From: Gallionellaceae bacterium
Lineage (GTDB): Bacteria; Pseudomonadota; Gammaproteobacteria; Burkholderiales; Gallionellaceae
Assembly (NCBI GenBank): GCA_009773615.1
Contig: WSYA01000007.1
Span: forward strand, 1 to 64,000
DNA: 64,000 nt
Reading direction: 5' to 3'
Under the pieces are notes generated by a model, which was given only the letters and a program-made list of their open reading frames with translations, did no database searches and had not been told where the DNA came from. Within the stretch, counting starts at the first letter, position 1. Every line of letters begins with the position of its first letter. The position numbers and the translations under genes were made by a program. Positions 17,692-63,582 of the stretch are shown here, piece by piece.

Positions 17692-18153
17692 TTAAATATC
17701 TTTTTCGTTGTTGAGTAATGCTGCGGCGCGTTGCTGCGCTTCCACGGTAAGAGTGGCCTCGGGAACAGACTGGCGACGCTTGCGTAACTGGAAGAAAAGT
17801 GTTCCACCGGCCACTAGCAACAAGGCGAACGGTCCGAACCAAAGCAACAGGGTGTACGACTTCACAGGCGGCTCGTACAACACGAAGTCGCCATATTTCG
17901 AAACCAGATAATCGATGATCTCCTGGTCGTTTTTGCCTTTGCTCATTTGCTCGCGCACTTCACGACGCAGGTCTTCCGCGAGTTCAGCATGGGAACTGGC
18001 CAGAGATTCGTTTTGGCAGACCAAACAACGCAGCTTTTCAGCCAGACCGATCATGCGTTTTTCCAACACCGGATCTGCTGCTATGTCCTTGGCCTCGCCC
18101 GCATAGGCAAACAACGGCATCAGGCACAACAATAAAACGAACAGGCGCTTCAT
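17692..18153 (-). CDS. ccmH: Cytochrome c maturation protein CcmH
   Basis: This 153-residue periplasmic, membrane-anchored thiol protein has a signal peptide MKRLFVLLLCLMPLFAYAGE, the redox motif LRCLVCQN, the helical HAELAEDLRREVREQMSKG segment and a C-terminal TM anchor (TLLLWFGPFALLLVAGGTL). It keeps apocytochrome CxxCH cysteines reduced for haem ligation. It overlaps ccmG by four bases and is two bases from ccmI. Confidence 0.96.
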   Translation of the reverse strand: MKRLFVLLLCLMPLFAYAGEAKDIAADPVLEKRMIGLAEKLRCLVCQNESLASSHAELAEDLRREVREQMSKGKNDQEIIDYLVSKYGDFVLYEPPVKSYTLLLWFGPFALLLVAGGTLFFQLRKRRQSVPEATLTVEAQQRAAALLNNEKDI

Positions 18154-40511: not shown

Positions 40512-41105
40512 TTAGCACCTAGCCTGTGCGGAATGATTATCCCCGTGCTTCATCGTTTCTTCCATCGTTTTCTGCATACATTTACTGTCCCAAGCCACAA
40601 CTTCGGGCGTATGCAGCAGTTTTTTACCGAACTCGAACACCAGCGCTAGGCGCTCTACCGCTTGCGGGGAAAGCCCCTCGCCCAACTCAAAGCGCTCGCC
40701 GCACACACACAAAATGAACACATCAGGCGGCGCTTCCTGATAGAACTGCGCATATACGTTCAGCAAAGCCTCGGGAGCAAGTGCATGGCTATACAGCACG
40801 GGCTCAGCATTTTTTTGTGCGCGATAAAAAGAAAACGGGGCGCCTGTATCCATCCCCGCATCAATAAAAAGCACCAATTGGCGCCCCTGCATGTCCATCG
40901 CGTGCTCGACCTGGAGCTGAAAATCTTCCAGCAGCTCAAAAAAATCCCCTCCCCCATGCAAGGGGAGGATTAGGGAGGGGGTAGAAGTTTCAACATTCGC
41001 CTGCCCCTTTAACCACCCATCCAATTTACGCAACAGCAGCGGACCGAGCGCATCGTCACCGCGCGACTCGTTGCCAATGGCAAAAATCAGAACAGGCGCG
41101 ACCAT
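40512..41105 (-). CDS. hoxW: Hydrogenase maturation protease HoxW with an inserted repeat
   Basis: This 197-residue endopeptidase matures HoxH after NiFe insertion. The N-terminal FAIGNESRGDDALGPLLLRKL and FIDAGMDTGAPF (Asp-rich nickel-site residues) are clear. Between residues about 40 and 53 the peptide STPSLILPLHGGG is coded by a palindromic GC-rich element (see separate entry), which keeps the frame. I expect normal relatives to lack it. Its ATG shares a base with the hoxH stop (TGATG). Confidence 0.93.
   Translation of the reverse strand: MVAPVLIFAIGNESRGDDALGPLLLRKLDGWLKGQANVETSTPSLILPLHGGGDFFELLEDFQLQVEHAMDMQGRQLVLFIDAGMDTGAPFSFYRAQKNAEPVLYSHALAPEALLNVYAQFYQEAPPDVFILCVCGERFELGEGLSPQAVERLALVFEFGKKLLHTPEVVAWDSKCMQKTMEETMKHGDNHSAQARC
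40946..40982. repeat. GC-rich palindromic repeat inside hoxW
   Basis: CCCCTCCCCC...GGGGAGGATTAGGGAGGGGG gives nested complementary arms (CCTCCCC / GGGGAGG). Its composition departs sharply from the surrounding gene. It resembles dispersed CCCTCCCC-type repeats found between genes in many proteobacteria and is translated here in frame. Confidence 0.65.
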
Positions 41106-42607
41106 CAGGCTAAGGCGCTAAACGTGCCGTCACTTGAACGCGAAAGACTCGACAAGCGCTCCCCCGCCGCATCCAACACTTCAACTTCCAGCGGCATCTT
41201 GCCCAGCGCATGCGTCGCGCAGGACAGGCAGGGATCGAAGGCGCGTATCGCCACCTCTATGTGATTCAGCAAACCCTCGGTGATCTCGCGCCCGTCGAAA
41301 TATTGCAGCGCGACCACGCGAATCGCCTCGTTCATCGCCTGATTGTTGTGGGTAGTGGAGACGATCAGGTTACAACGGGTGATCTGGTCGTGCTCATCCA
41401 CCTTGTAATGATGAATCAAGGTACCGCGCGGTGCCTCAATCACACCGACGCCGCGTTCCTGACGCTGACCGATGTTCACCAGTTCATTGCCTTGCAGGTC
41501 GGGATCGTGCAGCAATTCGCGGATCAATTCGGCGGCATGCAACATCTCGATCATGCGCGCCCAGTGGAAACCCAGCGTCGCTCCCGTGGCTGAGCCGCCA
41601 TTGAACGCCATGAACGCCTTGCGCGCCTGGTTGGCCAACGGTGTCGGAATGAAATCGCATTGCGTCACGCGTGAGAGCGGCCCGACGCGGTACCAACCGT
41701 CATCCGGCCCCAGCCTGCGCAGGAAAGGAAATTTCATGTACGACCAATTCTTCACATCCTCGAATATCTCATCCCAATAGTGACTGTAATCGTAATGATC
41801 GAACAGCGTCTTACCGTCCATGTCGCGCGCGCGCAGGCCACCGTGGTACAAATCCATTGCACCGTCAGCGCGCACCAGGTTCAGCGTATGCGCCTTGAAG
41901 GTGCCAAAATTATTGTAGAGATCGAGATTCTGCTCGAACAACTGGCGCGCAATACCGACGGCGGCTTTGCTCCACTCCACCATCTGGTCGATATCTTTGA
42001 GCAGATAATCGCGCTCTTCCAAGCTGACGTTTTTGTTCACGCCGCCAGGGATGGAACCCGTGCCATGCACGCGCTTGCCCGCCGTGACGCGGATCACCTC
42101 CTGCCCGTATTTGCGCAGCAGCACGCCCTGCTTCGCGATGTCAGGATAAGCGGCGACGACGCCGACGATGTTGCGCTTCGCTACATCCGAATCGAATCCG
42201 AACAACGAGTCAGGCGAACACAAGTGGAAGAAATGCAGCGCATGCGATTGCAGCATCTGGCCGTAGTGCATCAGCCGCCGCACTTTCTCCGCCGTCGGTG
42301 TGAGCGTCGCACCGACGATCATGTCCATTGCCTTGGACGCGGCAATATGATGACTCACCGGGCAGATGCCGCACAGGCGCTGCACCATCACCGGCGCTTC
42401 CCAATAGGGACGTCCCTGAATGAATTTCTCGAAGCCGCGAAACTCCACGATATGCAGCCGCACCTGCTGCACGCGGTTGCTCTCGTCCAGCAGCAGCGTC
42501 ACTTTGCCGTGCCCCTCCACGCGCGACACGGGCTCAATGGCAACACGGCGCAAATTTTCCGGATGGGCGGCTGTTTCCAAACTTTTGGTATTGGTGGTAT
42601 CAATCAT
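41105..42607 (-). CDS. hoxH: NiFe hydrogenase large subunit HoxH
   Basis: This 500-residue large subunit of the NAD-reducing hydrogenase has the N-terminal nickel motif RLCGICPVSHH (CGIC at 79-82) and the C-terminal DPCLSCATH (458-466), which together supply the four cysteines for NiFe(CN)2CO. The 34 residues after H466 (ALGKMPLEVEVLDAAGERLS and on) are the tail expected to be removed by HoxW. Start at 42607 overlaps hoxY by 8 bases. Confidence 0.97.
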   Translation of the reverse strand: MIDTTNTKSLETAAHPENLRRVAIEPVSRVEGHGKVTLLLDESNRVQQVRLHIVEFRGFEKFIQGRPYWEAPVMVQRLCGICPVSHHIAASKAMDMIVGATLTPTAEKVRRLMHYGQMLQSHALHFFHLCSPDSLFGFDSDVAKRNIVGVVAAYPDIAKQGVLLRKYGQEVIRVTAGKRVHGTGSIPGGVNKNVSLEERDYLLKDIDQMVEWSKAAVGIARQLFEQNLDLYNNFGTFKAHTLNLVRADGAMDLYHGGLRARDMDGKTLFDHYDYSHYWDEIFEDVKNWSYMKFPFLRRLGPDDGWYRVGPLSRVTQCDFIPTPLANQARKAFMAFNGGSATGATLGFHWARMIEMLHAAELIRELLHDPDLQGNELVNIGQRQERGVGVIEAPRGTLIHHYKVDEHDQITRCNLIVSTTHNNQAMNEAIRVVALQYFDGREITEGLLNHIEVAIRAFDPCLSCATHALGKMPLEVEVLDAAGERLSSLSRSSDGTFSALA

Positions 42608-43145
42608 ATTTGATAAGCCCGTGTCCAAGCTCGGGCGTCTTGCCCGCGATAAGGTCGGTGAGGAATTTCCAGATCGCGTCGCCAGAAGGCGGGCAGCCGG
42701 GAATGAAATAATCAATCTTCACCACTTCGTGTAGAGGATGGACTTTGTCGAGCGGCAGCGGCAACTCAGGGTCGTTCGGTATATGTCCGTGCGCCAACCC
42801 CGGTTCGGTCAAGTACACCTCGGTCAGGCAGGAGCCCAAATCGAGATGGTTGCGCTGCGCGGGCAGGCCACCGGTGATCGCGCAGGAACCGATGGCGATC
42901 AGTATCTTGCAGTTTTTGCGGAACTCGCGCAGCACATGCACGTTTTCAACATTGCAGATACCGCCCTCGATCAGCCCTATATCGCAGGGGCCGCAATGCT
43001 TGATGTCGGTGATGGGCGAACGGTCGAACTCGACCAGCTCCAGCAGCGTGAGCAAACGTTCGTCGATGTCGAGAAAAGACATGTGGCAACCGAAACACCC
43101 GGCGAGCGATGTCGTAGCAACACGCAGTTTTTTCTTCTCGCTCAT
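42600..43145 (-). CDS. hoxY: NiFe hydrogenase small subunit HoxY
   Basis: This 181-residue small subunit is shorter than respiratory hydrogenase small subunits and lacks a Tat signal, so it is soluble. It carries the proximal 4Fe-4S cluster: CFGC (17-20), CGPCDIGLIEGGIC, GSCAITGG and PGCPPSGDAI. It overlaps hoxU by four bases. Confidence 0.97.
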   Translation of the reverse strand: MSEKKKLRVATTSLAGCFGCHMSFLDIDERLLTLLELVEFDRSPITDIKHCGPCDIGLIEGGICNVENVHVLREFRKNCKILIAIGSCAITGGLPAQRNHLDLGSCLTEVYLTEPGLAHGHIPNDPELPLPLDKVHPLHEVVKIDYFIPGCPPSGDAIWKFLTDLIAGKTPELGHGLIKYD

Positions 43146-43870
43146 GGCTTTGCTCCTGCTGGCTTCCTCGGCGCATCATCCAGCGCCTGTGCGCTGATCG
43201 GACGTTGGTCATAGCGCCGTTCGCCTATGGGTATACTAAAACCGATGCGCTTCTTGAGAATCACGCCAACCGGACAAACTTGCATCGCCTTGTCTCCTAG
43301 CGCGATGTCGGTATCTTTCAATTGGCCGGATGCCGCGTTGACGATGAGGTGTTTGGTCGCCCCCCGACCGGACAGCGCGAATACGTTCTTGCCGTCCACC
43401 TCGCCCGAAGCCCGCACGCACAACTCGCACAAAATGCAGCGATTGAAGTCGAGCAGAATGTCGGGATGCGAAGCATCCAGCGGGCGATCCGGGTACTGGT
43501 GGCGGAAACCGGCGGTATGTACTTCAAGGTCGTAGCCCAGCGCCTGTAGCATGCAGTTGCCGCTTTTCTCGCACGAGGGGCAGAAGTGGTTGCCTTCGGC
43601 GAACAGCATCTGTACCAGCGTGCGGCGCAACGCGTTGAGTTCCTCTATGCCGCTCTCGATTTCCAGCCCGGTTTCTGCCGGCATGGTGCAGGAAGCAGCG
43701 GTCCGACTGCCTATCTTCACCGTGCACAGTTTGCAGCTACCGTGCGGCTTGAATTCGGGGTGGTAGCACAAATGCGGGATATATTTCCCCGCCGCGAGCG
43801 CAGCCTGAAGCACAGTCTGTCCATGCTCGAACTTAACCTCGACGCCGTCGAGATGGAATGTATCGCTCAT
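43142..43870 (-). CDS. hoxU: Diaphorase subunit HoxU
   Basis: This 242-residue iron-sulfur protein is homologous to the NuoG N-terminus. It holds a 2Fe-2S site (CYHPEFKPHGSCKLCTVKIG and later SCTMPAE), the HFCPSCEKSGNC segment, and a ferredoxin-like FNRCILCELCVRASGEVDG. It wires HoxF to HoxY. Overlaps hoxF and hoxY by four bases each. Confidence 0.96.
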   Translation of the reverse strand: MSDTFHLDGVEVKFEHGQTVLQAALAAGKYIPHLCYHPEFKPHGSCKLCTVKIGSRTAASCTMPAETGLEIESGIEELNALRRTLVQMLFAEGNHFCPSCEKSGNCMLQALGYDLEVHTAGFRHQYPDRPLDASHPDILLDFNRCILCELCVRASGEVDGKNVFALSGRGATKHLIVNAASGQLKDTDIALGDKAMQVCPVGVILKKRIGFSIPIGERRYDQRPISAQALDDAPRKPAGAKP

Positions 43871-45132
43871 GCATCCTCCGTTTTCAAATGAGCTCCCGCA
43901 TCGTCGCGTCCGGTCATCTGCCGCGCTCGGGCAAGTGCGCCGTCAAGATCAAAGGCCGGCTCGAAATCGAGCGACTTGAGCCGGTTTTCGTATGCAGGGC
44001 GGAAATGTTTCAGCGTATGCAGCACCGGATTGCAGGCGGTGCGCCCGAGACCGCAATGCGAAGTGGTTTGCAATACGTGATCCAGATTCTCGATCTCGAC
44101 GAGGTCGTGGCGCGTGCCGTGCCCGGCAGCGATCTTATCCATGGTTTGTTGGAGCATTGCGGTACCGACGCGGCAAGGCGTGCAAAATCCGCAACTCTCA
44201 TGCGCGAAGAAATGCACGTAATTGCGTGCCACCTCGAACATATCGCGGCTGTCGTCGAACACCATGAATGCGCCTGCAGTAGGTAAATCCTCGAAGCCCA
44301 GTCTGCGGTTGAATTCGCTCTCACCCACACATACGCCGGAGGGGCCGCTGATCTGCACAGCATGGGGGTTCACCGCGCCGCAGTCATCGAGTATATCGCG
44401 CACACTCACACCGAACGGATATTCGTAAATGCCTGGACGCGGACAGTCGCCGGACACCGAGATCAGTTTGCTGCCGGTCGATTTAGAGGTTCCTATAACC
44501 TTGTAATTATCAGCGCCCATCCGCACGACAAGCGCGGCCTGACAGAAGGTCTCCACGTTATCCAGCACAGTCGGTTGTTGCATATATCCGTGCGTAACCG
44601 GAAACGGCGGACGGTTACGCGGCACACCGCGCTTGCCTTCCAGCGATTCGATCAGCGCCGATTCCTCGCCGCAAATATATGCGCCCGCGCCCAGATGAAT
44701 GACGATGTCGAAATCGAAACCGGCTTGCCCGAGAATGTTTTTACCGAGCAGATTCGCTTCGCGGCGGCGTTGCAACACAGCTTCCAGCGTTTCCAGCATG
44801 TAGCGGTATTCGCCGCGCAGATAGAGAAAACCACGCTGCGCATCCACTGCCAACGCGGCCAGCGTCATACCCTCGAACACCAGATCGGCATAAGAAGTGA
44901 GCAGCACGCGATCTTTGAACGTGCCTGGTTCGCCTTCGTCGGCGTTGCACACCACATGCTTGACCGTACCTGCCGCGTTGCGCGTCGCCTCCCATTTCAA
45001 TCCGGTGGGGAAACCTGCACCGCCGCGCCCGCGCAGGCCGGAATTCTTGACCGCCTCGACAATGCCTGCCGCGCTCAACGTAATTCCCGCGCACAGTGCG
45101 TCGCCGGGGGTAAGCTGATTGTCGAGTAGCAA
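43867..45132 (-). CDS. hoxF: Diaphorase subunit HoxF, NAD/FMN binding (5' end disrupted)
   Basis: This flavoprotein subunit has NuoF-like motifs: NAD/FMN segment GRGGAGFPTGLKW, GAGAYICGEESALIESLEGK, and the 4Fe-4S site ESCGFCTPCRVGT with SHCGLG. As read, the only usable start is TTG at 45132, giving 421 residues, but homology-like sequence (PADFFRVEDNIRRKG) continues upstream to the hoxE stop in the same frame with no ATG or GTG. One missing base would join it to an ATG at 45185 overlapping hoxE (see finding). It exchanges electrons with NAD+/NADH. Confidence 0.9.
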   Translation of the reverse strand: MLLDNQLTPGDALCAGITLSAAGIVEAVKNSGLRGRGGAGFPTGLKWEATRNAAGTVKHVVCNADEGEPGTFKDRVLLTSYADLVFEGMTLAALAVDAQRGFLYLRGEYRYMLETLEAVLQRRREANLLGKNILGQAGFDFDIVIHLGAGAYICGEESALIESLEGKRGVPRNRPPFPVTHGYMQQPTVLDNVETFCQAALVVRMGADNYKVIGTSKSTGSKLISVSGDCPRPGIYEYPFGVSVRDILDDCGAVNPHAVQISGPSGVCVGESEFNRRLGFEDLPTAGAFMVFDDSRDMFEVARNYVHFFAHESCGFCTPCRVGTAMLQQTMDKIAAGHGTRHDLVEIENLDHVLQTTSHCGLGRTACNPVLHTLKHFRPAYENRLKSLDFEPAFDLDGALARARQMTGRDDAGAHLKTEDA

Positions 45133-45177
45133 ACCCTTGCGACGAATATTGTCCTCGACGCGGAAAAAATCGGCGGG

Positions 45178-45669
45178 TCACTCATCCAGTGGCGTACGGT
45201 TGCGGATCAGGTGGCCGATCTCCTGCACACGCTGGTGAGTGAGGCGCGTGATCGCGCGGCCGTTGACCAGCATAGCCGGGCCTTGATCGCACATCCCTGT
45301 GCAGGAAGTCGTCGCAATACTGACCAAGCCGTCTTCCGATACTTTGCCCGGCTGCAACCAGAGCTGATGGCACATTTCTTCGAGCAAGGCTTGATTGCCC
45401 AGCATGCGGTCGGTGATATTGTCGGAAAATAAAACGCGGTATTCTCCGTGCGGTTGCAAATAGAGGAAAGAATAAAAACTGGCCACGCCTTCGATCTTGG
45501 CGCGCGGCAATTGCAATTTTTGACTTAGGTAATCGATGGCATCGGAATGAATATATCCGTAATGCTCTTGTGCTTCGCGCAAAATCTGCAACAGATCGCT
45601 CGCGTTATACTGGCGACGAACGAGTATCGGATCCAAATACTCGGAATGCTTGTTAGTTGAAATGGTCAT
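45178..45669 (-). CDS. hoxE: Diaphorase subunit HoxE
   Basis: This 163-residue NuoE-like thioredoxin-fold subunit has LLQILREAQEHYGYIHSDAI and EGVASFYSFLYLQPHG, the classic NuoE pattern. NuoE-type proteins bind 2Fe-2S by four cysteines (C-x4-C and C-x3-C). Here the second pair is present (SCTGMC) but the first region reads VLFSDNITDRM with no cysteine; the only other Cys is in EEMCHQ. The cluster may be absent or use other ligands. First gene of hoxEFUYHW, divergent from sulP. Confidence 0.93.
   Translation of the reverse strand: MTISTNKHSEYLDPILVRRQYNASDLLQILREAQEHYGYIHSDAIDYLSQKLQLPRAKIEGVASFYSFLYLQPHGEYRVLFSDNITDRMLGNQALLEEMCHQLWLQPGKVSEDGLVSIATTSCTGMCDQGPAMLVNGRAITRLTHQRVQEIGHLIRNRTPLDE

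Positions 45670-61941: not shown

Positions 61942-63582
<1,641 letters not shown>

Follow-up and report, generated by a model that had tools for sequence, protein, structure and literature searches.

The window, that is, the whole stretch of 64,000 nucleotides of Gallionellaceae DNA analysed here, carries a group of hydrogenase genes on its minus strand. The boundary between two of its frames, called hoxE and hoxF in a preliminary description, raises the question of whether hoxF has lost its start through one missing base or whether both frames belong to a single gene. The upstream frame ('hoxE', 45669-45178) is closed by a TGA at 45180-45178, and the HoxF-like frame, which starts PADFFRVEDNIRRKGLLLDN, is open from 45177 to 43867. 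The two frames share one phase, with this single TGA between them. An ATG at 45185 overlaps the TGA (ATGAGTGA), and the frame that it opens (MSDPPIFSASRT...) diverges from HoxF and ends after 36 residues. The first possible start in the downstream frame is a TTG at 45132, with no ATG or GTG before it and with AAGG about 2 bases ahead of it; a product begun at this TTG would miss the 15-residue stretch PADFFRVEDNIRRKG. The letters of this boundary were read correctly in the preliminary description. Its statement that the overlap follows exactly the coupling style of the other hox junctions proved approximate, as the overlap exists but the others measure 4 (hoxF/hoxU), 4 (hoxU/hoxY) and 1 (hoxH/hoxW) bases.

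The 'hoxE' and 'hoxF' frames are almost certainly the two halves of one hoxF gene in which a tryptophan codon has turned into TGA. There is no gene junction at this place, because both parts form one continuous protein in relatives. A separate hoxE gene was not found in the relatives of this operon, which have one fused frame of about 600 codons; in the window this frame is interrupted by the TGA at codon 164.

Domain organization and operon context of hoxF

The product of the gene is the diaphorase subunit, of about 600 residues, of a soluble NAD-reducing [NiFe] hydrogenase (HoxFUYH type). According to the open reading frames and the Pfam and NCBIfam matches, hoxF is followed by hoxU, hoxY and hoxH in one operon (45669-40512, minus strand; Table 1). 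HoxU and the hydrogenase subunits matched their NCBIfam models only below the cut-offs, so that the subgroup assignment is provisional. The genome also carries a hypD gene at another locus.

Table 1. Coordinates of hoxF, its parts and the neighbouring genes in the window
Feature	Coordinates	Strand	Basis
hoxF, 600 codons plus stop, with TGA at codon 164	43867..45669	-	Frame of about 600 codons in relatives; alignment with 5xf9_A
N-terminal HoxE/NuoE-like domain of HoxF (earlier 'hoxE')	45181..45669	-	PF01257 at residues 15-151, E 1.8e-35
C-terminal NuoF-like part of HoxF, with FMN/NADH and 4Fe-4S domains (earlier 'hoxF')	43867..45177	-	PF01512, PF10589; dN/dS 0.063 vs. G005
In-frame TGA at codon 164, replacing the conserved Trp codon TGG	45178..45180	-	Trp in 72/72 distinct relatives of at least 50% identity and in 5xf9_A
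Conserved 15-residue stretch PADFFRVEDNIRRKG after the TGA	45133..45177	-	Column counts in 73 sequences (72 relatives and the window)
hoxU, intact; 4-base overlap of its start with the hoxF stop	43142..43870	-	Open reading frame and Pfam
hoxY, intact	42600..43145	-	PF01058
hoxH, intact; true start probably downstream of the listed TTG	41105..42715	-	PF00374
hoxW-like hydrogenase maturation protease, intact	40512..41105	-	TIGR00072 above cut-off; no Pfam match

When the TGA is read through, PF01257, PF01512 (residues 207-377 of the read-through chain) and PF10589 (479-562) are ordered in one chain, and the standard code cuts this chain after the first domain. The PF01257 part of HoxF is a thioredoxin-like domain, and the NCBIfam HoxE and NuoE models remained below their cut-offs against the N-terminal part (HoxE, 105.7 vs. 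224 bits). Codon 164 falls between the first two Pfam domains (15-151 and 207-377). Moreover, the read-through chain was modelled with AlphaFold (27 sequences; mean pLDDT 71.3), and residue 164 of the model lies outside regular structure, between the short helical turns 161-163 and 166-169 that come after a helix at 145-156.

The same arrangement occurs in known enzymes. The chain 5xf9_A, whose molecule name is 'NAD-reducing hydrogenase', is one chain of 591 residues in which a HoxE-like domain is fused to a NuoF-like part, as in the read-through protein of the window. It aligns to residues 18-596 of that protein (E 4.1e-156) with a Trp opposite the TGA and, unlike the window hoxF, has no internal stop. 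We take this chain (PDB 5xf9/5xfa) to be the HoxF subunit of the Hydrogenophilus thermoluteolus TH-1 enzyme, a soluble NAD-reducing hydrogenase. The 602-aa HoxF that Cupriavidus necator H16 encodes on plasmid pHG1 is 48.9% identical over residues 7-415 of the window downstream part and lacks an internal stop, and hoxU, the small subunit and hoxH follow it as they do in the window. This HoxF is described as a fused Nqo2/Nqo1-like protein in a passage of PMC3189943.

Codon 164 in relatives

The downstream part of hoxF was searched against 199 genomes, namely the window's own and 198 relatives. The HoxF-type matches that span nearly the whole query lie in open frames of at least 598 codons, except in the window (436 codons) and in four genomes where the match is near a contig end (G001, 578; G011, 576; G090, 456; G094, 465); the HoxF-type matches of G028 and G030 reach only residues 1-278. 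A second set, made up of named genomes, led to the same result, and there too the frame continues upstream. No split hoxF was found among those relatives of the 199-genome search that have enough upstream contig, and no second HoxF copy was found in the window's own assembly at E <= 1e-60.

Codon 164 was then read in fetched loci aligned to the window protein with its TGA taken as Trp. Of 109 loci (L002-L110, L002 being the window's own), we removed the window, 3 that do not span the codon (L087, L088 and L092), 19 duplicates (the same contig fetched twice from two sources) and 14 of less than 50% identity, which left 72 distinct relatives; the other HoxF-type matches of the 199-genome search were judged by open-frame length alone. 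All 72 relatives have TGG at codon 164 and none has a stop there; TGA occurs in the window alone. This result bears out the earlier remark that HoxE and HoxF, lying in one frame with one TGA between them, look like a broken HoxEF fusion. Furthermore, all 13 HoxF-type matches that the 199-genome search flagged with internal stops were fetched: 8 of the tblastn alignments hold a stop at the C-terminal end, 5 hold none, and the window's stop recurs in none of the 13.

The residues after codon 164 are also conserved. In the 73 aligned sequences, the columns of PADFFRVEDNIRRKG show, for example, P in 72, the second F in 72 and N in 71. The alignment check suggested in the preliminary description thus confirmed the conservation of this stretch, but as the interior of a longer protein and not as an N-terminus. 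Among the distant loci below 50% identity, Trp is found at codon 164 in 3 of 14 and other residues in 11 of 14, and in pairwise alignments, where this stretch is poorly aligned, Asn (C. necator) or Gly (Lichenicola) stands opposite the codon. As judged from these alignments, W164 is not universal.

The nearest relative is Gallionellaceae bacterium GW715_bin.18 (L032, equivalent to G005:C319; SCUU01000096.1), whose HoxF is 92% identical to that of the window over its whole length and whose hoxF neighbourhood is collinear with the window. Its codon 164 is TGG, in contrast to TGA in the window, a difference of G versus A.

A HoxF-type match was present in 87 of 119 genomes of the same family (a by-eye count, with two partial matches) and absent from 32, some of which are incomplete. 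The gene is therefore often lacking in the family, so that its loss is tolerated. Many relatives show a further NuoF-like match. In the window's own assembly (G000), complex I genes were not found, possibly owing to an assembly gap: nothing matched the nuoL family, and apart from hoxF itself only weak matches were obtained for the nuoF and nuoE families (E 6.7e-6 and 3.1e-6, respectively).

Selection on hoxF and origin of the stop codon

The window genes were compared with those on the syntenic contig of the nearest relative (G005), which shows about 78-85% DNA identity in collinear blocks. The dN/dS of hoxF was 0.057 for the part ahead of the stop and 0.063 for the part behind it, and that of the other 22 window genes ranged from 0.027 to 0.176, values that are rough because dS reached 2.07 in this comparison. 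The 23-gene control excludes the pair at window 17692-18153, whose open reading frames differ in length at the N-terminus. An internal stop was present in one of the 23 window genes, hoxF, and in none of those of G005. With six outgroups, the lineage-private changes before the stop were 0 nonsynonymous (N) and 4 synonymous (S) in the window and 1 N and 2 S in G005; after the stop they were 8 N and 21 S in the window and 7 N and 7 S in G005. By dN/dS, both halves of hoxF are under strong purifying selection. No decay was seen in hoxF, hoxU, hoxY or hoxH, and neither dN/dS nor the private changes gave a clear sign of relaxed selection on hoxF. Therefore, the change is either very recent or erroneous, unless the protein continues to be produced.

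As the comparison with relatives shows, the last base of codon 164 has changed from G to A, which converts TGG (Trp) into TGA in the linker from the HoxE-like domain to the FMN domain. We infer that this most likely reflects a real and recent nonsense mutation, carried by the strain or the consensus of this assembly. Ribosomes would release the 163-residue N-terminal domain, and little or nothing of the remaining HoxF would be produced, since the sole ATG overlapping the stop is out of frame. The hydrogenase would thereby lose its NADH-reacting module. If the nonsense change is real, it should be very young or the protein should still be made, because the hox genes show no decay. An annotation as a separate hoxE and a 5'-damaged hoxF would be wrong, since the locus is a single fused hoxF that carries a nonsense codon, and any metabolic prediction that this genome can reduce NAD with H2 needs a flag. 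A real stop would capture an early stage in the loss of the hydrogenase from a family, Gallionellaceae, in which the gene has a patchy distribution.

The main rival to a nonsense mutation is a wrong base in the consensus, introduced by sequencing, polishing or strain-mixing, in which case the true codon of the organism would be TGG and its hoxF an ordinary gene. The window lies on one of the 103 contigs of an assembly with an estimated completeness of 93.57%, which is probably metagenome-derived like the named relatives. Moreover, the two hoxF halves and the other genes of the operon have the appearance of full function. However, the change is a substitution and not a homopolymer indel, the type that is typical of long-read errors. 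The isolation of the stop can be counted both ways, as it is the sole internal stop in the 23 genes, which favours an error, and none of the other compared genes has one, which speaks against it. Taken together, a consensus error is rather unlikely, although it deserves serious consideration.

Readthrough, fission and base loss as alternatives

Alternatively, the TGA may be real but leaky, with tRNA-Trp reading UGA-C at a low level and restoring Trp, which would yield some full-length HoxF together with the free N-terminal domain. Weak readthrough of this kind, which would put back the correct residue, is possible. The hoxF TGA has C at +4, and passages of PMC5289835 describe UGA-C as giving inefficient termination in bacteria and report misreading of UGA by tRNA-Trp in E. 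coli and B. subtilis. The prfB locus of this genome retains the CTTTGAC frameshift site, and the absence of decay in hoxF can also be counted in favour of readthrough. In addition, C follows none of the 12 gene-ending TGA codons of the 23 window genes (window 16433-51755; a small sample), in contrast to the internal TGA of hoxF. On the other side, it is A at +4 that, according to PMC5289835, makes UGA especially liable to misreading by tRNA-Trp in E. coli, but the base at +4 in hoxF is C. Furthermore, an RF2 gene scoring over its family cut-off is present, no SelB scored over its cut-off, and a stop at codon 164 occurs in no relative read, so that there is no conserved recoding signal. We consider leaky termination improbable on the whole. 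Its specific form of a young, tolerated UGA-C read by ordinary tRNA-Trp, in which free HoxE-like domain and a little full-length HoxF would be made and the output would be lowered but not destroyed, is given slightly less credence still.

A conserved programmed readthrough system does not operate here, to judge from the alignment, and programmed stop-codon readthrough was rejected on the ground that the position of the stop is not conserved (0 of 72 relatives). The code is standard, because the RF2 gene is present, SelB is not over its cut-off and TGA ends 12 of the 23 genes. A UGA-to-Trp code (table 4 type) was rejected on the basis of these terminal TGA codons, the RF2 gene and the ratio of 125 in-frame TGG codons to one internal TGA in the 23 window genes. 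Selenocysteine insertion was likewise discarded, as the best SelB match reached 118.5 bits against a cut-off of 242.25 and the relatives have Trp, not Cys, at this position.

No tRNA-Trp was detected among the 35 tRNAs of the assembly or by a pattern that matched in 15 of the 21 genomes searched. In 8 relatives of the same family, tRNA-Trp has the ordinary form, with a 5-bp anticodon stem, A9 and G24. The suppressor forms considered were G24A, A9C and a 4-bp anticodon stem; tRNA-Trp of the last form is able to read UGA, according to PMC13092985. The tRNAs for Ala, Ile and Glu are also uncalled among the 35, and at least part of these absences are probably assembly gaps.

Functional fission of the gene, in which the HoxE-like and FMN domains would work as two chains and the second would arise from TTG 45132 by reinitiation, is very doubtful. 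The stop does lie in an interdomain linker according to Pfam and AlphaFold, and a separate HoxE exists in cyanobacterial Hox enzymes, as described in part of PMC3189943. However, a chain begun at this TTG would be without the 15 residues that open a conserved stretch, AAGG stands only some 2 bases ahead of the TTG, the ATG at the stop opens a different frame that is soon closed, and hoxF is split in no relative of the 199-genome search with enough upstream contig.

The remaining proposal, that one base lost from the CCC or TTTTTT run destroyed the hoxF start or that -1 slippage at the T6 run restores it, can be dismissed with near certainty: although the arithmetic is correct, in that one added base joins ATG 45185 to the HoxF frame, the junction of the nearest relative has the same base count and the same T6 run, differs from the window by substitutions only and has its frame open with TGG in place of TGA, the frame passes through in the 72 relatives, where the start of the protein is some 164 or more codons further upstream and no N-terminus lies here, and at least 6 T at the same spot are harmless in 17 of the 72, whose frames are intact. 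Two relatives with an intact TGG (L048 and L074) even have the same ATG, the preceding codons also reading GAT G... Because both features occur in relatives with intact frames, the ATG overlap and the T run are coincidental.

Elsewhere in the window, a 539-aa open reading frame on the minus strand (61942-63561), which we take to encode a GroEL-type chaperonin, ends in ...AMVETEM and not in the Gly-Gly-Met tail that is usual for such chaperonins.
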